Positions 3,470-17,623 of a stretch of DNA of 30,273 nucleotides are shown piece after piece. A model generated the notes under the pieces. The model searched no databases. It had not been told where the DNA came from and worked only from the letters and a program-made list of their open reading frames with translations. Every line of letters begins with the position of its first letter. Within the stretch, counting starts at the first letter, position 1. This DNA comes from Chloroflexi bacterium UBA4736 (lineage in GTDB: Bacteria > Chloroflexota > Dormibacteria > Dormibacterales > Dormibacteraceae). The stretch is from the NCBI GenBank assembly GCA_002404015.1, contig DHIW01000076.1, positions 15,956-46,228 on the forward strand, read 5' to 3'. Made by a program: the position numbers and the translations under genes.

Positions 3470-3487
3470 GCCGTACCCTTACGGGCC

Positions 3488-4609: not shown

Positions 4610-4619
4610 TCATCCAACT

Positions 4620-5858
4620 CTACCGGTCGCGTGGATTCGGCTCGTAGAACCGGCGCTCCTTCAACTGGTCCGGGAGATGCTGCTGCTCGACCTCGCCGCC
4701 CTCGAAATCGTGGGCGTAGCGGTAGCCCTTGCCGTAACCCATCTGCCGCATCAGCCCGGTGGCCGCGTTGCGGAGAGGAAGCGGTACGGGCAGGTTGCCG
4801 GTCTCCTGGATCGCCTCCCGCGCGGCCATGTAGGCGCCCAGCGTGGAGTTCGACTTGGGGGCCTTGGCCAGGTAGAGCGCAGCCTCGGTCAGCGGGAAGA
4901 GCGCTTCCGGCAGGCCGATGAAGTGCGCCGCCTGCTGGGCGGCGACGGCGACCGGCAGCGCCATCGGGTCGGCCAGGCCGACATCCTCGGAGGCCAGGAT
5001 CACGAGGCGGCGGGCGACGAAGTTGGGGTCCTCGCCCGCCTCCAGCATGCGGGCCAGCCAGTAGACGGCCGCGTCCGGGTCGCTCCCGCGCACGCTCTTG
5101 ATGAGGGCGGAGACGATGTCGTAGTGCTGGTCGCCGGCGCGGTCGTACAGAAGATGGCGCTCCTGCATCGCCTGCTCGATCGAGGCGACTGTCAGCGGGC
5201 CTTCGGGGCTCAACGCGGCGGCGGTCTCCAAAGCGTTGAGGCCGCTGCGGGCGTCGCCTCGCGAGGCCTCCAGCAGGCCGGCCATGGCGTCGTCCTCGAT
5301 CTCCCGGTGCAGCTCGGCCAGCCCCCGCCGCATGACCGCTTCCAGGTGCTGCGGCTCCAGCGCCTCGAGCCGGAAGACCCGGCTGCGCGAAAGCAGTGGC
5401 GCGATCACCTCGAACGACGGGTTCTCGGTGGTGGCCCCGATCAACGTCACGGTGCCGTCTTCGACGTGGGGCAGGATCGCATCCTGCTGGGCTTTGTTGA
5501 ACCGGTGCAGCTCGTCGATGAACAGGACCGTTCGCTGGCCTCGCTCGCGGGCCAGCCGGGCCTCGGCGATGACGCGCCGGAGGTCCGCGACGCCGGACGT
5601 GACCGCGCTGATGGACGTGAAACGGGCGCCGGTCGCCTTGGCCAGGATGCCCGCCAGCGTGGTCTTGCCGCTGCCGGGTGGGCCCCAGAGCACGATGCTG
5701 GGCAGCCGGCCGGCCGCCGCCAGGTCGCGGAGCGTCGTGACGACGCGCTCCTGGCCGACCAGGTCGTCGAACGTCGTCGGTCTCAGGCGCGACGCCAGGG
5801 GTGCGTCCGGCGCCCGTCCGGGCTCCTCCTGCGGAAACAGCGAGGTCTGGTCGGACAC
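4620..5858 (-). CDS. rarA: Replication-associated recombination ATPase RarA/MgsA
   Basis: This 412-residue AAA+ ATPase acts at stalled replication forks (RarA/MgsA in bacteria, WRNIP1/Mgs1 in eukaryotes). Walker A is GPPGSGKT at 59-66 and Walker B is VLFIDEL at 111-117, followed by the family-specific HRFNKAQQD. Sensor 1 lies in GATTENPSFEV. The C-terminal half has the tetramerisation region typical of the family, including SVRGSDPDAAVYWLARML and SEDVGLADP. The frame is open further upstream, but the N-terminal alignment and a TATCTT hexamer ending exactly 7 nt before GTG 5858 both support this start over one at 6146. It diverges from the zinc-ribbon gene. Confidence 0.94.
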   Translation of the reverse strand: MSDQTSLFPQEEPGRAPDAPLASRLRPTTFDDLVGQERVVTTLRDLAAAGRLPSIVLWGPPGSGKTTLAGILAKATGARFTSISAVTSGVADLRRVIAEARLARERGQRTVLFIDELHRFNKAQQDAILPHVEDGTVTLIGATTENPSFEVIAPLLSRSRVFRLEALEPQHLEAVMRRGLAELHREIEDDAMAGLLEASRGDARSGLNALETAAALSPEGPLTVASIEQAMQERHLLYDRAGDQHYDIVSALIKSVRGSDPDAAVYWLARMLEAGEDPNFVARRLVILASEDVGLADPMALPVAVAAQQAAHFIGLPEALFPLTEAALYLAKAPKSNSTLGAYMAAREAIQETGNLPVPLPLRNAATGLMRQMGYGKGYRYAHDFEGGEVEQQHLPDQLKERRFYEPNPRDR

Positions 5859-5864
5859 GCCTGA

Positions 5865-5870
5865 AAGATA
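5865..5870 (-). promoter_or_regulatory. -10 hexamer TATCTT of rarA (leaderless)
   Basis: Read on the minus strand, TATCTT ends 7 nt before the GTG start of rarA. That places the transcription start on the G of the start codon. No Shine-Dalgarno sequence is present between them. This is one of five exact matches to TANNNT at this offset in the window. Confidence 0.55.
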
Positions 5871-5894
5871 GCGGTCGGCCGCAAGGGCTGCGGC

Positions 5895-5900
5895 TACAAT
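5895..5900 (+). promoter_or_regulatory. -10 hexamer TACAAT of the zinc-ribbon/GGDEF gene (leaderless)
   Basis: TACAAT differs from the consensus -10 (TATAAT) at one base and ends 7 nt before the ATG at 5907, so the mRNA should begin at the start codon. No clear -35 element is seen. Confidence 0.6.
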
Positions 5901-5906
5901 TCCGCG

Positions 5907-6515
5907 ATGATCTGCTGGAGTTGCGAGGCGCAGGTTCCGGAGGGCGCCCAGTACTGCCCGACCTGCGGCCACAGCCAGAGCAACCGCAATACGAGTCCGA
6001 TCTTCGTCGTGGACGCCACGACCGAGCTTTTCAACGCCGTCTTCGTGAAGGCGATCGTGGGCCAGGAGGCGAACCGGGCGATCCGCTACAAGCGCCCGCT
6101 GTCGGTCCTGGTCGTCGAGGTCGACCACGCCGAGCACATGCACCACGACCTGGGCGTGTCACTGCTGAACGGGCTGCTGCGTGAGCTGGCCCAGGCGCTG
6201 GTCCAGGCTGTGCGCGACACCGACACGGTCGGCTTCCTGGACAGCGACGGCCCCCCGCACTTCGCGATCGTGCTGCCCGAGACTGACGCCCAGGGCGCCG
6301 TCCTGGCGGCGGACAAGACGCGGCGCTCCATCGCCTCTCACGACTTCGAGGCGGGCGGCCAGTGGCAGCGGCTGACGGTCAGCGTCGGGGCGGCCACGGT
6401 GAACCTGGAGAAGATGGGCGTCCAGGACCTGCTCCAGGAGGCCTACCTGACCCTCCAGCAGGGCCGCGCCGACGGCGCCGGCCCCAACCGCACCTACAAC
6501 CCGCTCCACGTCTAG
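5907..6515 (+). CDS. Zinc-ribbon protein with degenerate GGDEF domain
   Basis: This is a 202-residue cytoplasmic protein of unknown role. Residues 3-20 form a zinc ribbon of the type CxxC-x10-CxxC (Cys3, Cys6, Cys17, Cys20). Residues about 35-195 match the diguanylate cyclase fold: a LFNAVFVKAI helix in place of the LxNRR region, the RPLSVLVVEVDH strand with an Asp-containing metal-site equivalent, FAIVLPETD, and LTVSVGAA near the end. The catalytic GGDEF motif itself reads DGPPHF (114-119), so cyclase activity is very unlikely. It may be a c-di-GMP or GTP binding or protein-interaction module. It is divergent from rarA and 25 bases upstream of the phosphatase. Confidence 0.82.
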   Translation: MICWSCEAQVPEGAQYCPTCGHSQSNRNTSPIFVVDATTELFNAVFVKAIVGQEANRAIRYKRPLSVLVVEVDHAEHMHHDLGVSLLNGLLRELAQALVQAVRDTDTVGFLDSDGPPHFAIVLPETDAQGAVLAADKTRRSIASHDFEAGGQWQRLTVSVGAATVNLEKMGVQDLLQEAYLTLQQGRADGAGPNRTYNPLHV

Positions 6516-6528
6516 CCGTCGGTGTAGG

Positions 6529-6534
6529 TAATCT
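6529..6534 (+). promoter_or_regulatory. -10 hexamer TAATCT of the histidine phosphatase (leaderless)
   Basis: TAATCT lies in the 25-base gap after the zinc-ribbon gene and ends 7 nt before GTG 6541. The phosphatase can therefore be transcribed on its own, without a 5' leader. Confidence 0.55.
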
Positions 6535-6540
6535 CGGGTC

Positions 6541-7188
6541 GTGACGACCCGGATTTTCCTGATCCGCCATGCCGACGTCCAGAACCCGCAGCGGCTGCTC
6601 TACGGCCACCTGCCCGACTTCCGCCTCAGCCCGCTCGGCCGCGCCCAGGCGGCGGCGGTAGGCCAGAGGCTGCGGGGGAGCGGCCTCTCGCTGATCGTGC
6701 ACAGCCCACTCGACCGGGCCCGGGAGACCGCCGAGATCATCAGGGACCAGCTGAAGCACCTCGTGCCGCTGCGGCCGGAGCCGGAGCTGCGCGAGGCAGA
6801 GTTCAGCCGCTACCTACAGGGCGTGCCCTTCTGGCAGATCCCGGCCCGGCGCCCCCTCTGGTGGGTCCACAAAGCCAGGCGGGGGCTCCTGCCGGGCGAT
6901 GAGACGGTCGCCAGCATGGGCGGCCGGATCCTGGATGTGATGTGGAAGGTGGCGCGGGAGCGGCCGGACGAGGTCACGGCGCTGGTCAGTCATGCCGACC
7001 CCCTGCAGGCCGCCTGGATCCTGCTCGACGGCAGGCCCCACAAGGAGCGCGAGATGTACCGCAAGGCGGTGGACCGGGCGGGCGCCCTTGAGATCGACCT
7101 GGAGGGCGACGAGATCAGCCGGATGGACTACGTCCGGACGCCCAAGGTCAGCCTGGAGGCCGCGGAGGGGAGCCGGCCCGCGCCCTGA
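6541..7188 (+). CDS. Histidine phosphatase (phosphoglycerate-mutase-like) family protein
   Basis: This 215-residue protein belongs to the branch 1 histidine phosphatase superfamily, which hydrolyses phosphate monoesters through a phospho-histidine. The RHG motif is present as LIRHAD, with nucleophile His10 and Arg9. Arg61 falls in HSPLDRARETAEI, an acidic catalytic residue in LREAEF (Glu85/Glu87), and the second catalytic His151 in VSHADP. The substrate is unknown: family members range from cofactor-dependent mutases to alpha-ribazole and broad phosphatases. The residues after about 190 are a Pro/Ala-rich tail, and the last 41 bases overlap the 3' end of the convergent phosphoesterase gene. 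Confidence 0.87.
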   Translation: MTTRIFLIRHADVQNPQRLLYGHLPDFRLSPLGRAQAAAVGQRLRGSGLSLIVHSPLDRARETAEIIRDQLKHLVPLRPEPELREAEFSRYLQGVPFWQIPARRPLWWVHKARRGLLPGDETVASMGGRILDVMWKVARERPDEVTALVSHADPLQAAWILLDGRPHKEREMYRKAVDRAGALEIDLEGDEISRMDYVRTPKVSLEAAEGSRPAP

Positions 7189-8464
7189 AGGGCAGCGCCA
7201 TCGCGCCGAGCACCAGCGCCGCCCCCACGGCCGCGGTGGCGCCGCCCGCGAGGTCTACGCGGGGCGGGCACAGCGGCCGCGGGCGGGGGATGGTTGGTGA
7301 CTCCCCGGGGGGCACCGGGAGAGAGAGGACGGAGGTCTCCCAACCCGTCGGCAGCAGGTCGTTGACGAGGCGCCGGCGGTCCGTGTAGGAAACGAAGCCC
7401 GGCTCCGAGTGGCCGAAGTCGAAGGCGTCCTCCAGCGGGTTCGCCGAAGCCTCTCGCGAGTTCAGCGCCCGCAGCCCGAAAACGCTGCGCACGAACGCCA
7501 GGACCGAGGTGTGGTCGAACGGTTTCGCGCTGACGTGGCCGGGCTTGGCAAAGGGCGAGGCGACGATCGCGGGCACCCGGAAGCCGTAACCCCGGGAGTC
7601 CACCTGGGGCGGCGCCACGTGGTCGTAGAAGCCGCCGTTCTCGTCGTAGTTGAGGATGACCGCCATGGATTGCCACTGGGGCCCGGCGGCCAGGCTGTTG
7701 ATGGTCAGCGCCACGAACCGCTCCCCCCAGGAGATGGGGTCGGGAGGGTGCTCGGTGACCGGCTCCTGGGTGATGACCCAGGCCACGCTCGGCAGCCGCC
7801 CCGTCGCCGCATCGGCCAGCAGCTGCGAGTAAGGCCGCTGGGCGCGGGCTTCGCCGCGGTGCTCCGGGTAGTAGGTCACCGGATTGAAGCCTTCGGCAGG
7901 CACTTTGGCCACATAGCAGGCCCAGTCAACGCCCGCCTCGTCCAGGCGGTCGACCAGGTTCGGCCGCGGCAGCAGCCGGGCGTCGATCGTGGCCGGGTTG
8001 TCCTTGAAGCCCCCCGCCGATGCGGCGATGCTGTAGAGGCGGTTGGGAAAGGTGGGCCCCAGCACGGAGCAGAAGTAGCTGTCGCATAGGGTGAAGCGGT
8101 TCGCCAGCGACCAGTAGTAGGGGATGTCCTCGCCCGTGTAGTAGGTGAGGGCCCGGCTGCCGGCGAGGCTGAAGCGATCGTTGCGGCCCTGGTCGAACTC
8201 GGCCTCGGCCACGTCGGTCGTGTGCGGCACGTCGCTCAGGGCCAGCGTGTCGGCGTGGCTGACGGGCGCGCAGTCGGGCAGCCCGTTGGCGCCCGGGTAG
8301 AGCCCGAAGTAGTGGTCGAACGAGCGGTTCTCCTGCATAAGCAGGACGACGTTGCGGATCGGCGTGTCCGCCGCCCGCCCGATCCGGACCGCCGGAAAGG
8401 CCAGCCCGGCGGCCACGCCGGCCGCCCCGGCGAGGAATCGGCGTCGAGTCGGGCGACTGGCCAC
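7148..8464 (-). CDS. Tat-exported phosphoesterase (phospholipase C / acid phosphatase family)
   Basis: This 438-residue protein belongs to the PF04185-type phosphoesterases, metal-dependent enzymes that cleave phospholipids or phosphate esters outside the cell. Residues 1-31 are a twin-arginine signal (RRRFLAG at 7-13, then a hydrophobic stretch ending in Ala). ENRSFDHYF (45-53) is the family's metal-site and nucleophile region; NYDENGGFYDHVAPP and PFDHTSVLAFV are the later active-site blocks. A hydrophobic segment near the C-terminus (LAGGATAAVGAALVLGAMAL) followed by Arg residues suggests retention in the membrane. The frame is open to 8698, but GTG 8464 sits right before the Tat motif and 7 nt after TCATAT, so it is chosen. 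It is divergent from the glycosidase by only 21 bases. Confidence 0.88.
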   Translation of the reverse strand: MASRPTRRRFLAGAAGVAAGLAFPAVRIGRAADTPIRNVVLLMQENRSFDHYFGLYPGANGLPDCAPVSHADTLALSDVPHTTDVAEAEFDQGRNDRFSLAGSRALTYYTGEDIPYYWSLANRFTLCDSYFCSVLGPTFPNRLYSIAASAGGFKDNPATIDARLLPRPNLVDRLDEAGVDWACYVAKVPAEGFNPVTYYPEHRGEARAQRPYSQLLADAATGRLPSVAWVITQEPVTEHPPDPISWGERFVALTINSLAAGPQWQSMAVILNYDENGGFYDHVAPPQVDSRGYGFRVPAIVASPFAKPGHVSAKPFDHTSVLAFVRSVFGLRALNSREASANPLEDAFDFGHSEPGFVSYTDRRRLVNDLLPTGWETSVLSLPVPPGESPTIPRPRPLCPPRVDLAGGATAAVGAALVLGAMALPFRARAGSPPRPPG

Positions 8465-8470
8465 GGGCCG

Positions 8471-8477
8471 ATATGAT
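8471..8477. promoter_or_regulatory. Overlapping bidirectional -10 region of phosphoesterase and glycosidase
   Basis: The heptamer ATATGAT gives TATGAT on the plus strand, ending 9 nt before the TTG of the glycosidase. On the minus strand it gives TCATAT, ending 7 nt before the GTG of the phosphoesterase. With only 21 bases between the two start codons, both promoters must overlap here and neither mRNA can have a leader of more than a few bases. Confidence 0.5.
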
Positions 8478-8485
8478 CGGGCGCG

Positions 8486-9721
8486 TTGGCTGAGCTGCGC
8501 AAATTCCCCGACGGATTCCTGTGGGGCACCGCCAGCGCGGCCCACCAGGTCGAGGGCGGCTGCCACAACTGCGACTGGTGGCGTTTCGAGCAGCAGGGCG
8601 GCATCGTGACCGGCGACAGCGCCGACCCGGCCTGCGACCACTACCGCCGCTTTCGGGCCGATTTCCGCCTCTTCCGCAAGCTGAAGCACAACGCGCACCG
8701 GCTCTCGATCGAGTGGTCACGCGTCGAGCCCGCGCCGGGCGAGTTCGACAAGCGGCAGGTCCGGCACTACCGGACCGTGCTGGCCGAGCTCCGCGAGCAG
8801 GGCATGAGCCCGATGGTGACCCTGCACCACTTCACAAGCCCGACCTGGTTCGCCGACCGGGGCGGCTGGGCGGCCGCCGGTGCCCCTGACGGCTGGCTGC
8901 CGTTCGTGGAGCGCATGGCCGACGAGCTGGGCGACCTCGTCGACTTCTGGTGCACCATCAACGAGCCCAACATCTACGCCCACAACGGCTGGCTGGTTGG
9001 CGAGTTCCCGCCCGGCCGGAAGGGCGACCTCCGCGGGATGTATCGGGTGCTGGCGAACATGCGCGAGGCCCACGAGCGGGCCTACCGTGCGCTCAAGAAG
9101 CGGCGGCCGGACACCCCGGTCGGTCTCGCCCACCACAAGTGGCTGATGCTGCCGGCCGATCCCGGTCGTCGGCGTGACGTGTGGGCGGCCGCCTTCGCCC
9201 AGACCGCCATGGACCGCTGGCCAGTCTCGGCGACCCGGCTCGAGAACGTGGTCCAGGCGAGTGGCGATTACGTCGGCCTCAACCACTACACCGGCTCTCT
9301 CATCGCCTTCGACCCGTTCCGGCCCCAGGATCAGTTCGTGCGGCGCCTCAACCCGCCCGGCCTGCCGGAGACCGATATGGGCTGGGCCGTGGAGCCAGGT
9401 TGGCTCCGGCGCTCGCTGGAGCAGCTGAAGGCGCTGGGCAAGCCGGTCTATGTCACCGAGAACGGCATGGCGACCACCGATGACTCTCACCGTCAGAGGT
9501 TCCTGCGGGAGGTCCTGGAGCAGGTCTGGCTGGCGATCGAGGAGGGCGTGGACGTGCGGGGCTACTTCCACTGGACGGCGATGGACAACTTCGAGTGGGC
9601 CAAGGGCTACTCGATGAAGTTCGGCCTGATCGGGGTGGACCTGAAGAGCCAGGAGCGCACAGCCAAGCCCAGCGCGGCCCTGTTCGCCCGGATCGCCGCC
9701 GCCAACGCCCTCGTCGAATGA
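8486..9721 (+). CDS. Family 1 glycoside hydrolase (beta-glucosidase/beta-glycosidase)
   Basis: This 411-residue TIM-barrel enzyme hydrolyses beta-linked sugars from disaccharides or glycosides with retention of configuration. The N-terminal FLWGTASAAHQVEGG (11-25) is the family entry motif. The acid/base Glu160 is in CTINEPN (156-162) and the nucleophile Glu325 in VTENG (323-327). HRLSIEWSRVEP (71-82), LNHYTG (265-270) and DNFEWAKGY near the end are further signature blocks. It has no signal peptide, so it is cytoplasmic and would act on imported sugars. It starts at TTG; an ATATGAT promoter element lies just upstream. It is slightly shorter than the usual 440-470 residues. Confidence 0.95.
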   Translation: MAELRKFPDGFLWGTASAAHQVEGGCHNCDWWRFEQQGGIVTGDSADPACDHYRRFRADFRLFRKLKHNAHRLSIEWSRVEPAPGEFDKRQVRHYRTVLAELREQGMSPMVTLHHFTSPTWFADRGGWAAAGAPDGWLPFVERMADELGDLVDFWCTINEPNIYAHNGWLVGEFPPGRKGDLRGMYRVLANMREAHERAYRALKKRRPDTPVGLAHHKWLMLPADPGRRRDVWAAAFAQTAMDRWPVSATRLENVVQASGDYVGLNHYTGSLIAFDPFRPQDQFVRRLNPPGLPETDMGWAVEPGWLRRSLEQLKALGKPVYVTENGMATTDDSHRQRFLREVLEQVWLAIEEGVDVRGYFHWTAMDNFEWAKGYSMKFGLIGVDLKSQERTAKPSAALFARIAAANALVE

Positions 9722-9726
9722 CCGCA

Positions 9727-9732
9727 TAGACT
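9727..9732 (+). promoter_or_regulatory. -10 hexamer TAGACT at the head of the LLM-ccm operon (leaderless)
   Basis: TAGACT lies directly after the glycosidase stop and ends 7 nt before GTG 9739. It is the only promoter-like element seen before the nine overlapping genes 9739-15881, so it probably drives the whole cytochrome c maturation operon as a leaderless transcript. Confidence 0.5.
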
Positions 9733-9738
9733 TCGGTC

Positions 9739-10755
9739 GTGCGATTGGGACTGTCCGTCCCGTATTCGGATCAGATCCCGCGCGAGCTGATCCTTGCGTT
9801 CGTTCAGAACGCGGACCGCCTCGGCTACGACACGGTCTGGGTCGCCGAGGCGTACGGCTGGGACGCCTTCACCATCCTGTCCCAGTTCGCCTGCGCGACC
9901 CAGCGCATCAAGCTGGCAACCGGCATCGTCAACGTGTTCAGCCGCAGCCCAGCGCTGATCGCCCAGAGCGCCGCCTCGATGGACCAGATCAGCAACGGCC
10001 GCTTCGTGCTCGGCCTCGGCACCTCCGGCCACCAGGTCGTGCAGGGCTGGCACGGCGTCCCGTTCGAGCGGGGCATCCGGCGGCTTCGCGAGACCGTGGA
10101 CATCGTTCGGATGGTGCTGAAGCGCGAGCCCGTGCGATACGAGGGCGAGATCTTCCACCTCGACGGAGGCCTGAAGCTGATCACGCACCCCGTGCGCGAC
10201 ACCATCCCCATCTACCTGGCCACGCTGACCCCGACCGGGATCCGCCTGGCCGGCGAGCTGGCCGATGGCTGGATGCCGGTGTTCTTCTCGCCCCGCCACT
10301 ATGAGACGTTGATCAAGCCCGAGCTTCAGAAGGGGGCCGACGCTGCCGGCCGCTCGCTCGACGACCTATCGGTCTGCGTCTCCCAGCCCGTGGTCGTCAC
10401 CGACGACCGCAAGGCGGGGCGCGACGCGGCCCGGCCCGCGCTCGCGCTGTACATCGGTGGCATGGGTTCGCGCGAGAAGAACTACTACAACCAGCTCTTC
10501 CGCCGTTACGGTTTCGAGGCAGAGGCGGCGCACATCCAGGACCTCTACCTGGAGCGCCGGCGCGAGGAGGCGATGGCCGCGCTGACCGATGAGATGATCG
10601 ACCTGGTGACCATCATCGGGCCGGTCGAGGAGTGCCGCGAGCGCCTGGCCGAGCTGGAGCGGACCGGGGTGGACGAGGTCGCGCTCGCCCTCCAGGTGCC
10701 GGACAACGACCCGGCGGCGGTGCTGGCCGCGATGGAGGGCCTGGCGCCCCGATGA
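9739..10755 (+). CDS. LLM-class F420-dependent-type oxidoreductase, first gene of the ccm operon
   Basis: This 338-residue protein has the luciferase-like TIM-barrel fold used by F420H2- or FMNH2-dependent oxidoreductases. Family landmarks are MRLGLSVPY at the N-terminus, GYDTVWVAE, KLATGIVNVFSRSPALIAQ, NGRFVLGLGTSG and PIYLATLTPTGIRLAGELADGW. The substrate cannot be deduced. Its stop overlaps the start of the TlpA-like gene (ATGA), so it is translationally coupled to the cytochrome c maturation genes, an unusual partner for them. F420 dependence is inferred from the subfamily and not shown by a diagnostic residue. Confidence 0.88.
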   Translation: MRLGLSVPYSDQIPRELILAFVQNADRLGYDTVWVAEAYGWDAFTILSQFACATQRIKLATGIVNVFSRSPALIAQSAASMDQISNGRFVLGLGTSGHQVVQGWHGVPFERGIRRLRETVDIVRMVLKREPVRYEGEIFHLDGGLKLITHPVRDTIPIYLATLTPTGIRLAGELADGWMPVFFSPRHYETLIKPELQKGADAAGRSLDDLSVCVSQPVVVTDDRKAGRDAARPALALYIGGMGSREKNYYNQLFRRYGFEAEAAHIQDLYLERRREEAMAALTDEMIDLVTIIGPVEECRERLAELERTGVDEVALALQVPDNDPAAVLAAMEGLAPR

Positions 10756-11267
10756 GGCGGGCCGGCTGGCTGGCTGGCGGCGGGCTCGTGGCGATCGTCC
10801 TGGCTGCGCTGGGCTGGGGCCTGGCCCATCCCGCCAACCCGGCGGAGGGCACGATCATCGGCCGGGCAGCCCCCGAGATCACCGTCCAGTCCCTGGACGG
10901 GGCGACGGTCCGGCTCTCCGACCTGCGGGGCCAGCCGGTGGTCGTCAACTTCTGGGCCTCCTGGTGCGCGCCCTGCCGCCAGGAAGAGGGAGCCCTGAAG
11001 CAGGCCGCCGCCAACCACGGCGGGGTCCGCTTCCTGGGGGTCGACATCCTCGACAGCCCGGCCGCGGCTCGCGCCTACCAGGCCGAGGTCCACTACCCCT
11101 ATCCCGTAGGCCCGGCCGGCGACGCTTCGGTGACGGCTTTCGGCGTCAAGGCGCCGCCCCAGACGTTCTTCATCGACGGCCACGGCACCGTCGTCGCCAG
11201 CTTCCTGGGCCCTCTCGACCTGCCCGTCATCGACCGCTACCTGCAGCTGGTAGGCGTAGCCAGGTGA
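10752..11267 (+). CDS. TlpA/CcmG-like membrane-anchored thioredoxin
   Basis: This 171-residue thiol-disulfide reductase keeps the apocytochrome CxxCH cysteines reduced before haem attachment. Residues 4-24 are an N-terminal membrane anchor; the thioredoxin fold follows on the outer side. The active site WCAPC lies at 71-75 (Cys72, Cys75) and the cis-proline loop in VKAPPQTFFID. The frame is open upstream to 10632, but ATG 10752 overlaps the LLM stop as ATGA and directly precedes the anchor. By context it fills the CcmG role. Confidence 0.9.
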   Translation: MRRAGWLAGGGLVAIVLAALGWGLAHPANPAEGTIIGRAAPEITVQSLDGATVRLSDLRGQPVVVNFWASWCAPCRQEEGALKQAAANHGGVRFLGVDILDSPAAARAYQAEVHYPYPVGPAGDASVTAFGVKAPPQTFFIDGHGTVVASFLGPLDLPVIDRYLQLVGVAR

Positions 11268-11641
11268 TCCGCTTCGCGGTGCTGGCCGTGGTGATCGCGG
11301 GCTGCGTCGGCTACCTCATCTACTCCGCGACCGGCAGCTCAGCCGAGTACTACAGGACGTTGCCAGAGATCCGCGCGCACCCCAGCCCGGGCACCGTGCG
11401 GGTGCTGGCGACGGTCCAGGACGACGTGCAGACCAGCCAGGGCGGCTTGCACGTCCGCTTCACCGCCAGCGACTCCGGGGCGACCATGCCCGTCGACTAC
11501 ACGGGAACGGTGCCCGACATCTTCCGGCCCGGGATCAAGGTCGTCGTGGAGGGCCGATTCGGACAGGACGGGGTGTTCCACGCCAGGACCCTGCAGGCCA
11601 AGTGCCCTTCCCGCTTCTCTTCGACCAGTGCCGCAAGCTGA
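11264..11641 (+). CDS. ccmE: CcmE haem chaperone, Cys-type variant
   Basis: This 125-residue membrane-anchored OB-fold protein carries haem from CcmC to CcmF during cytochrome c maturation. Residues 3-22 are the signal anchor; the beta barrel runs from about 42 to 112 (RVLATVQDD, VDYTGTVPDIF, KVVVEGRFG, FHARTLQAKC). In the usual protein the haem is bound covalently by His in the HxxxY motif. Here the site reads CPSRF, with Cys114 replacing His and Phe118 replacing Tyr. A CxxxY form is known from archaea and some bacteria; the Phe is a further departure. It starts at GTG inside the TlpA stop (GTGA) and overlaps ccmF by 14 bases. Confidence 0.9.
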   Translation: MIRFAVLAVVIAGCVGYLIYSATGSSAEYYRTLPEIRAHPSPGTVRVLATVQDDVQTSQGGLHVRFTASDSGATMPVDYTGTVPDIFRPGIKVVVEGRFGQDGVFHARTLQAKCPSRFSSTSAAS

Positions 11642-13592
11642 GCTAGGTTCCGCCTGCCTGCTGGCCGCGCTTGCCCTGGCGGGCTTCGCCGGCCTCGTGT
11701 CAGCGCTCGCTGGGCGCCGGCAGGACGCGATCCTGGCGCGCGTGGGCCGGCGCGCCTACTACGCCGCCGCGGTGTGCGCGGCCGGCGCCTCGGCCGCACT
11801 CGTCTGGGCGCTCCTCGGCCACGACTTCGAGATCGCGTTCGTGACCGAGCACAGCGACCGCTCGATGCCGGGGTCGCTGCTGGTCGCGGCCTTCTACGGC
11901 GGCCAGGAGGGGTCCCTCTTGTACTGGACCCTTCTGCTGACGGGGGTGGGCGCAGTCTCGCTGGCGGCCGCGTCCCGCCAGGGCGTCCAGCTCACCGCCT
12001 ACGCTACCGCGATCCTGGCCGCAGTCAGCGGCTTCTTCCTGGTCGTGCTGGTGTTCGTGGCCAGCCCCTTCGACGTGCTGCCGATCACCCCCGCCGACGG
12101 TCTCGGCCTGAACCCGGTCCTGCGCGACGGCGGCATGCTGATCCACCCGCCCTTCCTGCTGGCGGGCTTCAGCTCCTTCGCGGTGCCCTTCGCGTTCGCG
12201 ATGGCCTCGCTTCTGGCCGGCCGTCAGGACGCGGGCTGGATCGCTGCCACCCGCCGGGTGGCCCTGCTCGCCTGGGGCCTGCAAGGCGTCGGCCTCACCC
12301 TCGGCATGTGGTGGGCCTACCACGTGCTGGGCTGGGGCGGCTACTTCGGCTGGGACCCCGTCGAGAACGTGGCGCTGATGCCGTGGCTGGCGACCACCGC
12401 CTACATCCACTCCGCGCAGGTCCAGGAGCGGCGCGGCCAGCTGAAAGCGTGGAACTTCGGCCTGGTCATCCTGGCATTCCTGCTCTCGGTGTTCGGGACC
12501 TTCATCGTGCGCAGCGGCGTGCTGCCGTCGGTGCACACGTTCGCGCTGAGCCCGATCGGGCCCTGGTTCTTCGGCTTCCTGGCGGTGGCGATCGTGGTCT
12601 CCGGCGGGGTGCTGGCCTGGCGCGCGCCGCAGCTGCGGTCCGACCAGCCGCTGGAGTCCCTGGTCTCCCGCGAGGGCGCCTTCCTGCTCCAGAACCTGCT
12701 GCTGGTCGCCCTGACGGCTGCGATCCTCTGGGGGACGGTCCTCCCACTCCTGTCCGGCATGCTGGGGGACCAGCTGGTCGTGGGCGCGCCGTATTACGAG
12801 CGCGTGGCCCCGCCCCTGTTCCTGGCGCTGCTCGCCTTGCTCGCGGCCGGCCCCCTGCTGCCCTGGCGGCGAGCCGGGCGGACCTGGCTGCGAGCGCTCC
12901 GCCTGCCGGCGGCGGCCGCCCTCCTCACACTGGCCCTGCTGCTCGGGCTGGGGGCTCGCTCCGCGGCTGCGCTGCTGACGATGCCGCTCCTGGCGGCGGC
13001 CGCGGCCACCTCGCTCCTGGAGTATGTGCGGGGCGGCCGCTTCGCCACCCGCCTGGCCGGCCCCTGGCCGCTGGCGGCGGCTCGACTGGCGGCCCGCAAC
13101 CGGCGCCGCTACGGCGCCTACCTGGCGCACCTCGGGATCGTCGTCGTGGCTGCTGGAATAGCGGGCTCGCACCTCTGGCAGCAGGAGCGGACCGTCAGCC
13201 TGCAGCCCGGCCAGTCAGTGAGCGTCGCCGGCCACCAGCTGACCTACACCGGCCTGGTCCGGCGGGACCTGGGTGACCACTCGGAGCTGGTGGCGCGGCT
13301 GCAGATGGGCACTGAGAGCCTGGAGCCGGCGCGGGCGCTCTACGCCAGCCTGGGGGGCCAGTCGCTGACCAGGGTCGCCATTCGGAGCACCCCCCTGGAC
13401 GACGTGTACGTGGTGCTGGCGGGGACGGGCCCCGGCGACGCGGCCACGCTCCAGGTGTTCGTGAACCCCCTGGTCACATGGATCTGGGCGGGCGCCGCGC
13501 TCCTGATACTGGGCGTCCTCCTCGGCAACCTCGGCGGGCCCAGGCCGGAGCTCAGGCGGGCCGCCTCCACGGTCCGGGTGCCCGCCCCATGA
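11628..13592 (+). CDS. ccmF: Haem lyase CcmF
   Basis: This 654-residue polytopic membrane protein is the core of cytochrome c haem ligation. The tryptophan-rich WWD haem-handling domain spans 228-247 (from WWAYHVLGWGG to GWDPVEN). His173 (MLIHPPF), His232, His261 and His303 (LPSVHTF) are at or near positions known for haem ligands in this family. About a dozen hydrophobic segments fill the rest, with a soluble outer loop between about 510 and 625 and a final membrane helix. Its length fits the family (about 630-680). The GTG start overlaps ccmE by 14 bases, and the stop overlaps the next start as ATGA. Confidence 0.95.
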   Translation: MPQAELGSACLLAALALAGFAGLVSALAGRRQDAILARVGRRAYYAAAVCAAGASAALVWALLGHDFEIAFVTEHSDRSMPGSLLVAAFYGGQEGSLLYWTLLLTGVGAVSLAAASRQGVQLTAYATAILAAVSGFFLVVLVFVASPFDVLPITPADGLGLNPVLRDGGMLIHPPFLLAGFSSFAVPFAFAMASLLAGRQDAGWIAATRRVALLAWGLQGVGLTLGMWWAYHVLGWGGYFGWDPVENVALMPWLATTAYIHSAQVQERRGQLKAWNFGLVILAFLLSVFGTFIVRSGVLPSVHTFALSPIGPWFFGFLAVAIVVSGGVLAWRAPQLRSDQPLESLVSREGAFLLQNLLLVALTAAILWGTVLPLLSGMLGDQLVVGAPYYERVAPPLFLALLALLAAGPLLPWRRAGRTWLRALRLPAAAALLTLALLLGLGARSAAALLTMPLLAAAAATSLLEYVRGGRFATRLAGPWPLAAARLAARNRRRYGAYLAHLGIVVVAAGIAGSHLWQQERTVSLQPGQSVSVAGHQLTYTGLVRRDLGDHSELVARLQMGTESLEPARALYASLGGQSLTRVAIRSTPLDDVYVVLAGTGPGDAATLQVFVNPLVTWIWAGAALLILGVLLGNLGGPRPELRRAASTVRVPAP

Positions 13593-13804
13593 CCTGGCTG
13601 CTGGCGACCCTGGTCGTGGTCGCCGCCGCGCCCGTCGTGCTCTGGCCGCTGATCCGGCACTGGCAGCCCGACGCCGATCCAGAAGCGCCGGCCGACCCCC
13701 GCGAGGCCCGCCTGCGCGAGCTCGAGGAGCTGGAGCTGGACGTCGCCTCGGGTCGGCTCTCGCGGCTCGAGGCCGACCGCCGGCGGGCGGAGCTGCAGCC
13801 GTGA
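13589..13804 (+). CDS. CcmI-like short membrane protein
   Basis: This is a 71-residue protein with one N-terminal membrane helix (about 3-22) and a charged helical tail. The tail (RLRELEELELDVASGRLSRLEADRRR) resembles the first cytoplasmic helix of CcmI, the protein that holds apocytochrome c for ligation in proteobacteria, but the TPR domain is absent. The start ATG overlaps the ccmF stop (ATGA) and its stop overlaps the ccmA start (GTGA), so it is a genuine coupled gene and not an intergenic accident. The CcmI relation rests on position and a short similarity. Confidence 0.72.
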   Translation: MTWLLATLVVVAAAPVVLWPLIRHWQPDADPEAPADPREARLRELEELELDVASGRLSRLEADRRRAELQP

Positions 13805-14439
13805 TCGCGGTCCGCGGCCAGGCCCTGTTGCAGCGATTCGGCGGCACGGTGGCCCTGGGCCCTCTCGCCCTCGAGCTGCGGGCCGGTGAACGCCTGGCGG
13901 TGCTCGGCGACAACGGCGCCGGGAAGACCACGCTGCTCCGGCTGCTTTCGACCGCCGCCCGGCCCGCCGCCGGCCGCCTGGAGCTGTTCGGCCTCGACGC
14001 CGGCCGCCAGCGCGACCGCCTGCGGGCCCGCCTCGGCTTCGTTGGCCACCAGCCCGGCCTCTACCCGAATCTCACCGCACTCGAGAACCTCGAGTTCTTC
14101 GCCACCCTCCAGGGGCTGCCGAGCTACCGCGCCCGGGAGGCACTGGAGATGGTCGAGGTGCCCAACCGGCGGGCCGGACAGCTGTCGCGCGGTCTCCAGC
14201 AGCGCGTCGCCCTGGCCCGGGCGGTCATGCACGCGCCCGAGCTGCTCGTCCTGGACGAGCCGGACGCCAGCCTCGACGAGGGGGGCCGGGCGCTGCTGGG
14301 GCGCCTCCTAGACGACCGCACGGTGGTCCTGGCCACCCACGACCGCGTGCTGGCACGCTCTCTGTGCGGGAGGGCGATGCTGCTGCGGGCCGGCCGGGAC
14401 GTCGGCGACCCCTGGCAGCTGGGGCTGGTCGAGGCGTGA
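13801..14439 (+). CDS. ccmA: CcmA, ATPase of the CcmABCD haem-release complex
   Basis: This 212-residue ABC ATPase works with CcmB, CcmC and CcmD to release holo-CcmE. Walker A is GDNGAGKT at 36-43, the signature LSRGLQQR at 128-135, Walker B LLVLDEPDASLD at 148-159, and the H-loop lies in LATHD. The length is normal for CcmA, which is shorter than most ABC ATPases. It starts at GTG overlapping the previous stop, and its stop overlaps the ccmB start. Confidence 0.93.
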   Translation: MIAVRGQALLQRFGGTVALGPLALELRAGERLAVLGDNGAGKTTLLRLLSTAARPAAGRLELFGLDAGRQRDRLRARLGFVGHQPGLYPNLTALENLEFFATLQGLPSYRAREALEMVEVPNRRAGQLSRGLQQRVALARAVMHAPELLVLDEPDASLDEGGRALLGRLLDDRTVVLATHDRVLARSLCGRAMLLRAGRDVGDPWQLGLVEA

Positions 14440-15098
14440 GCTTCATCGCCGCCGCCGCGGCGGTCGCGCGCAAGGACCTGCGCTCTGAGCTGCGAGGCCG
14501 CGAGATCCTGCCGGCGCTGGCCCAGTTCGTGGTCCTGGCGCTGGTGATCGCCAACTTCGCTTTCGACCTGGACCTGGTCTCGGCCGCCCGGCTGGGGCCG
14601 GGAATCCTCTGGTTGGTGCTGGTCTTCGTCGGGCTCGTCGCCTTCGGGCGCACCTTCGCGGCGGAGAAGGAGCAGGCGACCCTGGAGGCGATGCTGCTGA
14701 CCCCGGCCGGCCCGGCCGCCATATTCGCCGGCAAGGCGCTGGCGGCGGCCGGCCTGCTGGTGGCCTGCGAGGCGGTCCTGCTGCCTGCCATGGCCGTGTT
14801 CCTGGGCAGCCCGATCTCACCGCCGGTGGTCGCCACGGTGCTGCTGGCGACGATCGGGATGGCCGCCCTGGGCAGCCTGTTCGCGGCGCTGGCGGCCCAG
14901 ACCCGGGCCCGCGAGCTGCTGCTGCCCGTACTGGCCCTGCCGCTCTGGATCCCCTTCGTGGTGGTCGGCGGCCACGCCGTTCAGGCGGCCATGGGCGGAA
15001 CCCCGATGGGCGCCCAGCCGCTCACGATCCTGCTCGATTTCGACATACTCTTCTGCGTCGTGGCCTCCCTGGCCGCGCGCTTCGTGCTCGATGACTAG
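14436..15098 (+). CDS. ccmB: CcmB, membrane subunit of the haem-release ABC complex
   Basis: This 220-residue integral membrane protein has about six hydrophobic segments. The start is GTG 14436, which overlaps the ccmA stop; the same frame is open further upstream but that part lies inside ccmA. Family features are the N-terminal VARKDLRSELRGRE and, after the second helix, AFGRTFAAEKEQATLEAMLLTP, a conserved CcmB stretch. It pairs with CcmA. It overlaps ccmC by 8 bases. Confidence 0.93.
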   Translation: MSFIAAAAAVARKDLRSELRGREILPALAQFVVLALVIANFAFDLDLVSAARLGPGILWLVLVFVGLVAFGRTFAAEKEQATLEAMLLTPAGPAAIFAGKALAAAGLLVACEAVLLPAMAVFLGSPISPPVVATVLLATIGMAALGSLFAALAAQTRARELLLPVLALPLWIPFVVVGGHAVQAAMGGTPMGAQPLTILLDFDILFCVVASLAARFVLDD

Positions 15099-15786
15099 AA
15101 GGCTTCAGCTCCTCACCCTCGCCTCGCTGCTGGCGATGCTCGCCGCGGCCGGGATGATCTTCGTGTACGCCCCCCAGGATGTCCTGCAGGGCCCCGTCCA
15201 GAAGATCTTCTACGTCCACGTCAGCTCGGCGATCGCCTCCTTCTGCTGCTTCGGCCTGGTGACCGGTGGCAGCCTGGCCTACCTCTGGCGGGGCAGCCTT
15301 CGGGGCGACCGGCTGGCCCGCGCGGCCGCGATGAGCGGGCTGGTCCTGGTGACGATCACGATCGTCATGGGCGTGCTCTGGGCGAAGCCGATCTGGAACT
15401 GGGACCCCACCCAGACCTGGGACGCCCGCTTCACATCGACCGTGGTGCTCTGGATGATCTACGCCGGCTACCTGCTGGTCCGCAAGTTTGCCGACCCGGG
15501 CCGGCAGGCGGCGCGGCTGGCCGCCGTGGTGGGCATCGTGGGCTTCATCGACGTGCCGGTCGTGTACGAGAGCGTCAACTGGTGGCGCACTCTGCACCCG
15601 GGGCCGGTCATCACCGTGCAGGGAGCGCTGCCGCCGGCGATGCTCCTGACATTCCTGGTGACCATGGCCTGCGAGCTCCTGCTGGCGGCCACCCTGGTCT
15701 CGCTCCGCTACCGGCTGGAGCTGCTGCGGGACCTGCGCGAGGGGTCGCCCGCCGGCGCGGTCTCGCCCGTTGAGTTCGCTCGATGA
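15091..15786 (+). CDS. ccmC: CcmC, haem delivery protein
   Basis: This 231-residue protein with six membrane segments loads haem onto CcmE. The WWD-type motif is at about 97-113 (WAKPIWNWDPTQTWDAR). The two flanking histidines expected to ligate haem are His43 (YVHVSSA) and His169 (NWWRTLHPG). The PVVYESVNWWRTLHPG segment is a family hallmark. The start ATG lies 8 bases before the end of ccmB, and the stop overlaps the ccmD start as ATGA. Confidence 0.94.
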   Translation: MTRRLQLLTLASLLAMLAAAGMIFVYAPQDVLQGPVQKIFYVHVSSAIASFCCFGLVTGGSLAYLWRGSLRGDRLARAAAMSGLVLVTITIVMGVLWAKPIWNWDPTQTWDARFTSTVVLWMIYAGYLLVRKFADPGRQAARLAAVVGIVGFIDVPVVYESVNWWRTLHPGPVITVQGALPPAMLLTFLVTMACELLLAATLVSLRYRLELLRDLREGSPAGAVSPVEFAR

Positions 15787-15881
15787 CGTACCTGGTGCTC
15801 GGCTACGCCGCGGCGACCGTCCTGCTCTTCGGGTACCTGGGCGTGACGATCATCCAGCTGAGGAACCAAGAGCGGCGCTGA
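15783..15881 (+). CDS. ccmD: CcmD-like small membrane protein
   Basis: This is a 32-residue peptide: a Tyr-containing N-terminus, one hydrophobic segment (residues 4-24) and a charged tail ending NQERR. This matches CcmD, the small protein that stabilises CcmC-CcmE and helps release holo-CcmE. Its ATG overlaps the ccmC stop (ATGA), as for most junctions in this operon. The last 32 bases overlap the 3' end of the convergent Nudix gene. The assignment depends on place and shape more than on sequence. Confidence 0.75.
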   Translation: MTYLVLGYAAATVLLFGYLGVTIIQLRNQERR

Positions 15882-16449
15882 AGCGCGGCAGCAGGTCGGC
15901 CAGGATCCGCGCCGTCAGGCCCCAGATCCGGGCCTCCTCCCAGGGGAAGTAGCGGCCCATCCAGACCTCGTCGGGCTCGAGCCACTCCTCCTCGGACAGC
16001 AGCCGGGCCAGCGGCACCTCCAGGACGCCGACCAGCTCTCGGGTGTCGTGGACGAAGTTGATCTCCGAGGCATCGTCGAGCCAGGCCACGAAGGGCACCA
16101 CCGAGAAGTTGGTGACCGCGGCGTAGATCGCAGACCCGGCGCCCAGCGGCACCAGGCTGGAGGCGGCCACGCCGACCTCCTCCTCAACCTCGCGGGCAGC
16201 CGCCGCCCAGGCGTCCTCGCCGGGCTCGACCTTGCCGCCGGGTAGCGCCACCTGGCCGGGATGGCTGGGCAGGTCCGGCCGGCGGGTCACAAAAGGCAGG
16301 TGCCACTCCCCTTCCCGCCTGTACAGGACGGCCGTCACGGCGGCCTCGCGGGCCCCCCGCCGGAAGCTGCCCCAGCCGTCAAGGGGCTGGAGCAGCGAGG
16401 CCAGCCGCTGCAAAAAGGGGTCGGAAAGGGTTTTAGCGGACCCGGCCAC
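15850..16449 (-). CDS. Nudix hydrolase, CoA-pyrophosphatase type
   Basis: This 199-residue protein has a perfect Nudix box at residues 72-94: Gly72, five residues, Glu78, seven residues, then REVEEEVGV. Upstream, RRPDLPSHPGQVALPGG fits the extra signature of the CoA-type (NudL/YeaB) branch, and IWGLTARILADL near the end is another NudL-like block. It would cleave CoA or a similar dinucleotide to phosphopantetheine plus nucleotide. The frame continues to an ATG at 16485, but GTG 16449 lies 7 nt after TACCTT and keeps the two divergent genes apart, so it is preferred. It is convergent with ccmD. Confidence 0.88.
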   Translation of the reverse strand: MAGSAKTLSDPFLQRLASLLQPLDGWGSFRRGAREAAVTAVLYRREGEWHLPFVTRRPDLPSHPGQVALPGGKVEPGEDAWAAAAREVEEEVGVAASSLVPLGAGSAIYAAVTNFSVVPFVAWLDDASEINFVHDTRELVGVLEVPLARLLSEEEWLEPDEVWMGRYFPWEEARIWGLTARILADLLPRFSAALGSSAG

Positions 16450-16455
16450 TTGGGT

Positions 16456-16461
16456 AAGGTA
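16456..16461 (-). promoter_or_regulatory. -10 hexamer TACCTT of the Nudix gene (leaderless)
   Basis: On the minus strand TACCTT ends 7 nt before GTG 16449. The overlapping plus-strand hexamer TAAGGT (16455-16460) ends 9 nt before the ATG of the divergent gene at 16469, so both promoters appear to share these bases. Confidence 0.5.
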
Positions 16462-16468
16462 GGGATAG

Positions 16469-16816
16469 ATGATCGACCGCACCAATCTACGTATTGAGGA
16501 AATGGAAGAGGAGATCCGGCGCGAGAACGACCGCCGGTACGCCTTCTATCGGATGCTTAACGCCACCGACCGGGTGCTGTGGCGCCTGGAAGAGATGAAT
16601 CGGGACGGTGTCACCACCATCCCCGACCCTGTCCGCCACAAGATCCGGGAGACGGTCGAGGAGCTGCCCGATCCCTGCCACGAGGTATTCCGTGACAGCG
16701 ATCGAGTGCAGGAGACCCTGGACAGCATCTTCGAGCTGCAGGAGTCCCTGTTCAAGTGGCGCAACCCGGAGTGGGCTCTGGAAGAGGGCGACGACCTGGA
16801 GCGGGCCGCCAGCTGA
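16469..16816 (+). CDS. Conserved-looking acidic helical protein of unknown function
   Basis: This 115-residue protein is not one I recognise. It is rich in Glu, Asp and Arg and should be almost wholly alpha-helical, with heptad-like stretches at 8-25 (RIEEMEEEIRRENDRRY) and 60-95 that could form coiled coils. There is no signal peptide or membrane segment, and one Cys (CHEVF). Codon use is like the neighbours. It starts at ATG, with AGGGA 3 nt before the start as a possible but close ribosome-binding site. It diverges from the Nudix gene and converges on the ZIP gene with a 10-base gap. Confidence 0.75.
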   Translation: MIDRTNLRIEEMEEEIRRENDRRYAFYRMLNATDRVLWRLEEMNRDGVTTIPDPVRHKIRETVEELPDPCHEVFRDSDRVQETLDSIFELQESLFKWRNPEWALEEGDDLERAAS

Positions 16817-16826
16817 GCCGCCGGCG

Positions 16827-17609
16827 CTAGCCTGTTGCCGCCGTCAGGACCAGGTCGGTGCCGAACGCGGCCAGGAAGCCGGCCAGGACGCCCCAACCCA
16901 TCATGGCCGGCGTGTTGAGACGCTTGCCGAGCGCGAACAGCTCGTTGAGCACGTAGATCAACGCGCCCGCGGCCAGCGCCAGGAAGAGCACCGACACGAC
17001 CGCGCTCGTCGCCACGTACCCGATCAAGGTCCCCACCAGGGTGGGCCCGCCGCCGATCAGCCCGGCCAGGCCCAGGAACCCCCAGGAGGCGGTGACCGAG
17101 TTCATGGTCATGGGCGCGGCGATCCCGAAGCCCTCCGTGATGTTGTGGAGGGCGAAGCCGACCACCAGCACGCCGGCGAAGGCCACGGCGCCGGTCGCCG
17201 CCGACTGGCCGATGGCGAGACCCTCGGAGAAGTTGTGGAGGCCGAGGCCGGTGGCGATCATCATCGAGAGGGCCTGGGGCGAGGGTGAGCCCGGGCTCGA
17301 ACCCTTCAGGCGGCCCAGGATCTCGGAGTTGAAGTAGACCAGCGAGAGCAGGCCGGCCGCGATGCCGGCCGCGAAGACGCCGGCCAGCAAGACGAAGCGC
17401 CCGGCGTCGTGGCCTCGAACGGCGATGCTCACAGGAGCCCCGGCATGCTGGAGGATGTCCCAGAGCAGGAAAACCAGGATGCCCGTGGCGACCGCGTTCA
17501 GGAAGCCCTGGAGCCGCTTGGGAAGACCGCGCAGGCGGGCCACCGGGAGGCCGATGAAGATGGTGACTCCGGCGATTCCACCGAGCAGGGCCGCTGTGTA
17601 GATGCTCAT
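16827..17609 (-). CDS. ZIP-family divalent metal transporter
   Basis: This 260-residue membrane protein with about eight helices imports divalent metals such as zinc, iron or manganese. The metal path residues are seen in helix 4 as GLHNFSEG (123-130: His125, Asn126, Glu129) and in helix 5 as ALHNITEG (153-160: His155, Asn156, Glu159). It is of the bacterial ZupT/GufA length. It is divergent from a DtxR/MntR-type metal regulator, with only 20 bases between start codons, so regulation by metal is likely. The ion cannot be told from the sequence. Confidence 0.9.
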   Translation of the reverse strand: MSIYTAALLGGIAGVTIFIGLPVARLRGLPKRLQGFLNAVATGILVFLLWDILQHAGAPVSIAVRGHDAGRFVLLAGVFAAGIAAGLLSLVYFNSEILGRLKGSSPGSPSPQALSMMIATGLGLHNFSEGLAIGQSAATGAVAFAGVLVVGFALHNITEGFGIAAPMTMNSVTASWGFLGLAGLIGGGPTLVGTLIGYVATSAVVSVLFLALAAGALIYVLNELFALGKRLNTPAMMGWGVLAGFLAAFGTDLVLTAATG

Positions 17610-17615
17610 TGGCGG

Positions 17616-17623
17616 ATGATCAT
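17616..17623. promoter_or_regulatory. Shared palindromic -10 element between ZIP gene and DtxR regulator
   Basis: ATGATCAT is a perfect palindrome lying in the middle of the 20-base gap. Each strand gives GATCAT, which ends exactly 7 nt before the start codon of its own gene: GTG 17630 on the plus strand and ATG 17609 on the minus strand. This fits a symmetric pair of leaderless promoters, although the first base (G for T) departs from TANNNT. Confidence 0.45.

Follow-up and report, generated by a model that had tools for sequence, protein, structure and literature searches.

TANNNT hexamers next to start codons suggest leaderless transcription, and may be shared between close divergent genes, in Dormibacteria

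The DNA considered here (the window) is a stretch of 30,273 nucleotides from contig DHIW01000076.1 of the uncultured Chloroflexi bacterium UBA4736, in which genes on both strands are preceded, at very short distance from their start codons, by a hexamer of the form TANNNT. A sequence-only reading of this stretch had singled out five genes in which the last T of the hexamer falls 7 nt before the start codon. All five hexamers lie where it placed them. We express this distance as k, the number of bases separating the hexamer from the start codon, such that "exactly 7 nt" corresponds to k = 6. The first putative −10 box, TATCTT (5865..5870, minus strand), precedes the GTG start at 5858 of rarA (4620..5858, minus strand; Pfam, from which all gene names in the window were assigned, PF12002, 8.6e-64), which codes for a MgsA/RarA AAA+ ATPase and many orthologues of which align from residue 1. 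On the plus strand, TACAAT (5895..5900) precedes a zinc-ribbon/GGDEF gene with an ATG start (5907..6515; PF00990, PF13240), TAATCT (6529..6534) precedes a histidine phosphatase gene with a GTG start (6541..7188; PF00300), and TAGACT (9727..9732) precedes a luciferase-like monooxygenase (LLM) gene, also with a GTG start (9739..10755; PF00296), that heads a ccm operon. The fifth hexamer, TACCTT, lies before the GTG start of a Nudix hydrolase gene (15850..16449, minus strand; PF00293). As had also been claimed, no Shine-Dalgarno sequence accompanies these genes: AGGAG, GGAGG, GAGGT and AGGTG are all absent from the 25 bases preceding each start.

The same offset of k = 6 is borne out for TCATAT, before a phosphoesterase gene whose GTG start is less certain (7148..8464, minus strand; PF04185), and for GATCAT, which stands before both a ZIP metal transporter gene with an ATG start (16827..17609, minus strand; PF02535) and a DtxR-family metalloregulator gene with a GTG start (17630..18325, plus strand; PF02742, PF01325, PF04023). 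Four further TANNNT hexamers end 9 nt before a start (k = 8), again as described earlier. These are TACCCT (3474..3479, plus strand) before an MscS-like gene (GTG 3488), TATGAT before a glycoside hydrolase family 1 gene with a TTG start (8486..9721, plus strand; PF00232), TAAGGT before the ATG of a gene for a 115-residue protein lacking a Pfam match (16469..16816, plus strand), and TAAACT (20470..20475, plus strand) before a phosphorylase gene (GTG 20484), where the hexamer is located within the 3′ end of the upstream gene. One more hexamer, TAGAGT (4617..4622, minus strand), at k = 7 before the GTG at 4609 of a gene spanning 3989-4609, had been overlooked.

There are 53 TANNNT sequences on both strands of the window, whose GC content is 69.7%. 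When TANNNT followed by k bases and ATG or GTG was counted for k = 0 to 15, with no starts chosen in advance, the numbers of sites were 0, 1, 0, 1, 0, 1, 6, 1, 5, 0, 1, 0, 1, 0, 0 and 1. Five of the six sites at k = 6 are gene starts, and the remaining one (206, minus strand) is antisense within a gene; at k = 8, three of the five are gene starts (3488, 16469 and 20484), and those at 15060 and at 204 (minus strand) are not. Other spacings have a mean of 0.5 sites if k = 8 is left out and 0.8 if it is included. With an assumed mean of 0.65, the Poisson probability of at least six sites at k = 6 is 6e-5, for 16 spacings inspected.

The genome-wide statements that follow concern relatives of the window, not the window's own genome. 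The closest titled genome, as judged by RarA (72%), is a metagenome-assembled genome of Candidatus Dormiibacterota. Its class, which we take to be Dormibacteria, is represented by 110 genomes, of which G134 is the nearest by RarA (77%). The sequence-only reading had proposed a genome-wide enrichment count as the observation on which it should stand or fall, and this count, made in 12 relatives (2,178,958 bp and 2,080 called genes), shows a sharp rise at k = 6. Genes were called with a small codon-usage gene finder, and TANNNT was counted at each spacing before every in-frame ATG or GTG near the onset of coding, a start-agnostic procedure, so that the choice of start was not tuned to the motif. 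Contigs were split into separately handled pieces no longer than 20 kb, with the loss of genes at the cuts. Pooled counts for k = 0 to 5 are 7, 10, 6, 9, 13 and 7, and those for k = 6 to 10 are 74, 75, 59, 54 and 36; against a background of 11.9 this amounts to an excess of about 239 sites. The rise at k = 6 is seen individually in every one of the seven relatives for which at least 200 kb was sampled (G001, G109, G029, G134, G073, G019 and G114), and is weakest in G109. Non-start codons give no comparable peak in the relatives, apart from a minor rise to 9-12 at k = 6 that is confined to G001. Raw whole-genome pattern counts were discarded because coding background dilutes the signal. These data also show that "exactly 7 nt" fails as a rule: the spacing spans k = 6 to about 10, and k = 6 best fits genes that begin with GTG.

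A Shine-Dalgarno peak coexists with the TANNNT peak in the relatives, no −35 consensus is visible upstream of their TANNNT-led genes, and the bases flanking the hexamer are not A/T-rich. For comparison we used loci of other Chloroflexota and of further phyla as controls, namely 56 of 78 loci (L003-L080) for the spacing count and 74 of the 78 for the gap counts given below; L030, L040, L056 and L059 belonged to no control group. Loci of other Chloroflexota, with 169 genes over 198 kb, lacked a TANNNT peak. Acidobacteriota loci among L024-L077 (130 genes) show a weak rise (5, 3, 6 and 6 sites at k = 6 to 9), and some leaderless genes might thus exist in that phylum as well.

The hexamer is distributed unevenly among genes of the relatives. 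With chosen starts, it leads 172 of 570 divergent genes (30%), 64 of 481 same-strand genes that follow a gap of more than 60 nt (13%), 45 of 218 that follow 16-60 nt (21%), and 42 of 590 that follow 15 nt or less (7%). The chosen starts carry a motif bonus that inflates the absolute shares but is identical for all four groups, and the difference between divergent and tightly packed genes is pronounced (Fisher, 4e-25). The TANNNT signal marks promoter-proximal genes, not operon-internal ones.

Furthermore, several of the window's hexamers are conserved in orthologues. We accepted matches of at least 45% identity that begin within the first 6 residues, collapsed identical upstream stretches, and removed loci that lack a nearby in-frame start or lie too close to a contig end. 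Of 26 orthologues of the zinc-ribbon/GGDEF gene, 24 have TANNNT at k = 6-10 (2.15 expected); the spacer varies and, among the 14 hexamers listed, most are TAGAAT or TACAAT. TANNNT is likewise found in 14 of 18 orthologues of the histidine phosphatase gene (3.29 expected), in 17 of 29 of the gene starting at 4609 (2.93 expected), and in 2 of 4 of the LLM gene (0.41 expected). Among seven operon-internal control genes, one of which had no orthologues, TANNNT appears in 1 of 29 orthologues. For the phosphoesterase gene, no orthologue start in the loci examined passed filtering. The rarA and zinc-ribbon/GGDEF genes, separated in the window by 48 bp that contain two separate boxes, remain divergent neighbors in many relatives, where there are again two separate −10-like boxes and none that is shared.

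A feature of the window that had been missed is that three divergent gene pairs have only 19-21 bp between their start codons, and in two of these the gap holds a symmetric −10-like box. In the Nudix/16469 pair, whose gap is 19 bp, TAAGGTA (16455..16461) can be read on both strands, as TAAGGT (plus strand, k = 8, ATG 16469) and as TACCTT (minus strand, k = 6, GTG 16449), and the sequence GGTAAGGTAG is kept in the relatives L203 and L218. In the phosphoesterase/glycosidase pair, whose gap is 21 bp, the near-symmetric TATGATC (8472..8478) reads as TATGAT (plus strand, k = 8, TTG 8486) and as GATCAT (minus strand, k = 8, GTG 8464), and is overlapped by TCATAT (8471-8476, minus strand, k = 6); an orthologue in G130 has TATGAT at k = 8 in a divergent gap of 24 bp. 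The third pair, ZIP/DtxR, has a gap of 20 bp with a weak candidate, the palindrome ATGATCAT (17616..17623), which presents GATCAT on both strands at k = 6 before GTG 17630 (plus strand) and ATG 17609 (minus strand).

Gaps of this kind are frequent in the relatives. In the 12 genomes, start-codon gaps have a mode at 10-30 bp, and 34 of 285 divergent pairs fall within this range (33 distinct gap sequences). These counts rest on called genes, as in-phase antisense frames made up most of the yield of a looser scan of open frames. Among the 19 gaps that measure 17-25 bp, 12 hold A-N-N-N-T spaced at k = 6-10 from either start codon, compared with a shuffle mean of 2.3 and none of 2000 shuffles reaching 12. 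Both in these 12 gaps and in TAAGGTA of the window, the self-complementary A-N-N-N-T falls at −11 and −7 of both predicted transcription starts, as expected of a shared −10 element. In 6 of the 34 short gaps, neither side has a TANNNT-led start.

Short gaps could also arise from chance compaction or from errors in gene calling, with no shared promoter box involved. Our gene finder is simple, a GC content this high often yields in-phase open frames on the antisense strand, and the ZIP/DtxR pair is not conserved as a shared box. However, control loci that were processed alike gave gaps of 10-30 bp in only 1 of 117 pairs (Fisher, 7e-5), and the difference persists when starts are picked without regard to the hexamer (24 of 285 versus 1 of 117, P = 0.0025) or are set at the leftmost position (38 of 285 versus 2 of 117). 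Further evidence comes from particular gene pairs. A protein search that made no use of the pattern returned GatD-like matches in 71 of the 110 class genomes; among the best 30 loci, all 13 GatD-like genes with a divergent GT2 neighbor have TANNNTA in a gap of 19-25 bp, whereas only 1 of the 16 without an adjoining GT2 gene has TANNNT at k = 6-10 (one incomplete locus was dropped). The box thus seems to be present when the GatD-like gene needs its own promoter, and we regard chance compaction or faulty gene calls as an improbable source of the short gaps.

The GatD/GT2 arrangement also emerged from a search of the 110 genomes with CAY-N6-TANNNTA-N6-RTG, a pattern that sets k = 7 on both strands and 19 bp between starts. 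It has 51 matches, compared with 11 for a version with N4 spacers. The 30 loci fetched include 9 GatD-like/GT2 pairs, 6 carboxyltransferase/LysR pairs, and 2 in which a biotin-ligase-like gene lies beside a 62-residue frame. Pfam searches with one locus of each type identified GATase_3 and Glycos_transf_2 (L190), Carboxyl_trans and LysR (L197), and BPL_LplA_LipB (L194), and the GatD/GT2 and carboxyltransferase/LysR sets have long frames open on both sides. The carboxyltransferase/LysR pair holds TANNNTA in a 19-bp gap in the six loci examined (L195-L200), and by the letters of the pattern it occurs in 12 genomes.

We assign a probability of about 0.88 to leaderless or nearly leaderless transcription as the best reading of these data. 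The TANNNT hexamers would be −10 boxes of the housekeeping sigma factor, and transcription would begin at, or a few nucleotides from, the first base of the start codon to yield a leaderless or nearly leaderless mRNA. Members of the class would then translate such mRNAs beside those of ordinary Shine-Dalgarno genes. The arrangement had been said to be known in Deinococcus and Actinobacteria, and the literature agrees: the relevant passages describe TANNNT about 12 bp upstream as a mark of leaderless genes across bacteria, with Chloroflexi included under a TAtaaT pattern (PMC3160421), the use of TANNNT without a −35 motif in Mycobacterium tuberculosis (PMC3898074), and leaderless genes with TANNNT in Deinococcus-Thermus (PMC12340547). 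As in the accounts of Actinobacteria and Deinococcus-Thermus given there, the hexamer described here lies about 12 bp upstream and coexists with Shine-Dalgarno genes, and like the M. tuberculosis promoters described it lacks a −35 motif. Unlike the TAtaaT pattern given for Chloroflexi in those passages of PMC3160421, the element is TANNNT, and the 198 kb from other Chloroflexota have no peak. The lineage is also a different one, being a class of Candidatus Dormiibacterota. The earlier suggestion that leaderless genes are common in this lineage gains support from the enrichment in relatives, to the extent that the hexamers indeed denote leaderless genes.

A competing explanation treats the hexamers as −10 boxes belonging to ordinary leadered promoters, with the true start codons farther downstream. 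All start codons are indeed predicted, and some DtxR orthologues lack a GTG at the corresponding place and have an ATG 9 nt downstream, meaning that the start codon cannot always be told from the hexamer. On this point the claim that it resolves start codons holds only in part. Yet misplaced starts would blur the lower edge of the spacing distribution, and the edge at k = 6 is sharp. Moreover, conserved protein sequence begins right after the predicted starts (LRIAHLY and VCIPTYNE in the GatD/GT2 pair, and the cysteines of the zinc ribbon), which makes general misplacement of starts quite unlikely. An unstructured or AT-rich signal for translation initiation in leadered mRNAs would be in keeping with the fact that many bacterial starts lacking a Shine-Dalgarno sequence avoid nearby structure, and we consider it highly improbable, given that the hexamer occurs four times as often at divergent genes as at packed operon-internal ones, separates the divergent GatD copies from the others, is symmetric in short divergent gaps, and is not adjoined by A/T-rich bases.

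In five of the DtxR loci (L243, L249, L251, L255 and L260), the GTG is replaced by a non-start codon, with the ATG 9 nt downstream and the upstream TTAGTAC unaltered, as if the start codon had moved while the promoter region stayed in place. In addition, the palindrome TTAGACAATACTAAC lies within the first codons of the DtxR gene (17645-17659 in the window; also in loci L232-L261), and in 24 of 30 DtxR loci a search expression picks up TTAGT with TTAG-N6-CTAA close behind it. This palindrome resembles the DtxR operator, and could serve for autoregulation from within the coding sequence.

The spacing depends on the start codon. In the relatives, without subtraction of background, GTG accounts for 88 sites at k = 6-7 and 49 at k = 8-10, and ATG for 61 and 100, respectively (P = 9e-6). 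One reading is that GTG functions perhaps only at the extreme 5′ end of an mRNA and that ATG tolerates a leader of 1-3 nt. Another is that the bias reflects the choice of start site by the polymerase.

Several observations weigh against leaderless transcription from these boxes, or against their sharing. First, spacings of k = 8-10 could imply a leader of 1-4 nt. Second, conservation is uneven. TANNNT as such is retained in only 1 of 27 rarA orthologues, and we rejected this hexamer as a conserved TANNNT; CAGAAT or CACAAT occurs at k = 6-10 in 20 of the 27, for which count E ≤ 1e-50 replaced the identity cut-off. TANNNT is found in 8 of 26 DtxR orthologues, compared with 8.1 expected from shuffles, and the ZIP orthologues listed have no consistent hexamer, such that ZIP/DtxR was rejected as a conserved shared box. 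For the gene at 16469, just 2 of 33 orthologues have the hexamer close to the start, and most of the 30 relatives listed have a TAAGCTA-like box farther upstream that is followed by a purine-rich stretch, so the gene is probably leadered in those relatives. In the window, the close spacing has the appearance of a local transition from a leadered to a leaderless gene. Third, for the 19-bp pattern, control patterns read backward have about 103 matches, exceeding the 51 of the true pattern. We think that this excess reflects the greater frequency of AT than TA in these genomes, which makes the backward control unsuitable, and we therefore rely on the control with altered spacing. About 24 of the 51 matches belong to three orthologous families, and only L174 of the other 13 fetched loci has frames of more than 200 codons on both sides, so many of the other matches are probably due to chance. 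In 60 Actinomycetota-like genomes from the phylum of L018 (titled Acidimicrobium), considered as a possible second lineage with this pattern, there are 128 matches with true and 79 with altered spacing, a weak excess for which genomes rich in matches at either spacing act as a confounder.

The 115-residue protein encoded at 16469 has matches in 71 of the 110 class genomes at E ≤ 0.001 (below 1e-20 in 40 genomes), and its gene lies close to a DtxR gene in several genomes of the class.

A shared box has a simple rationale. In the bases read by sigma factor (−11A and −7T), A-N-N-N-T is self-complementary. A single box can thus serve polymerase both ways, which would allow some divergent leaderless genes to close up until about 20 bp hold both promoters and both translation starts. 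In the passages available from PMC12825309 and PMC10268837, bidirectional promoters of Escherichia coli and Salmonella are described as sharing a −10 element, with divergent starts most often 18 bp apart, and the reciprocal −11A/−7T in one box is a likeness to the present case. The pairs reported there are mapped transcription starts, and the divergent RNA is often antisense and non-coding. In Dormibacteria, both directions are protein-coding and apparently leaderless, and some examples are conserved; with both genes coding and apparently leaderless, the promoter would fill the whole intergenic gap.

Divergent neighbors with leaderless transcripts have been described for M. tuberculosis Rv1130/Rv1129c, in a passage that mentions neither a shared symmetric −10 box nor a gap near 20 bp (PMC3898074). 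Between lysG and lysE, another such pair of the same species, there are overlapping −10 and −35 motifs, and the portion of PMC5648196 that reports them calls closely juxtaposed divergent promoters common; there, the gap is 108 bp and only one lysE promoter is leaderless. In a 50-kb plasmid region of Deinococcus radiodurans, the short divergent gaps are two in number and measure 30 and 54 bp; inspection by eye revealed no convincing symmetric box in either. In the literature on leaderless genes in connection with bidirectional, divergent or overlapping promoters, of which few subscription papers were covered and some sources in extract, we found no −10 element shared by two leaderless genes. 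Neither leaderless genes nor bidirectional promoters are new in themselves; it is their fusion into one unit of about 20 bp that looks new. We consider it moderately likely that, as a trait of the class, closely spaced divergent genes are both driven by one and the same symmetric box.

A more far-reaching possibility, to which we give somewhat less than even odds, is that leaderless transcription has reshaped gene layout in Dormibacteria. About one in eight divergent pairs would have shrunk to a gap of 10-30 bp, many would share a symmetric −10 box that fires in one direction per binding event and so acts as a built-in switch, and GTG would have to form the 5′ end where ATG tolerates a short leader.

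If the boxes are −10 elements as proposed, leaderless gene expression would extend to the Dormibacteria, a lineage for which the genomes used here include metagenome-assembled ones, and the sequence rule would improve the annotation of start codons there. If, in addition, the shared box is real, these bacteria would possess very small divergent promoters, in which about 20 bp accommodate two promoters and two translation starts and competition between the two genes is enforced.

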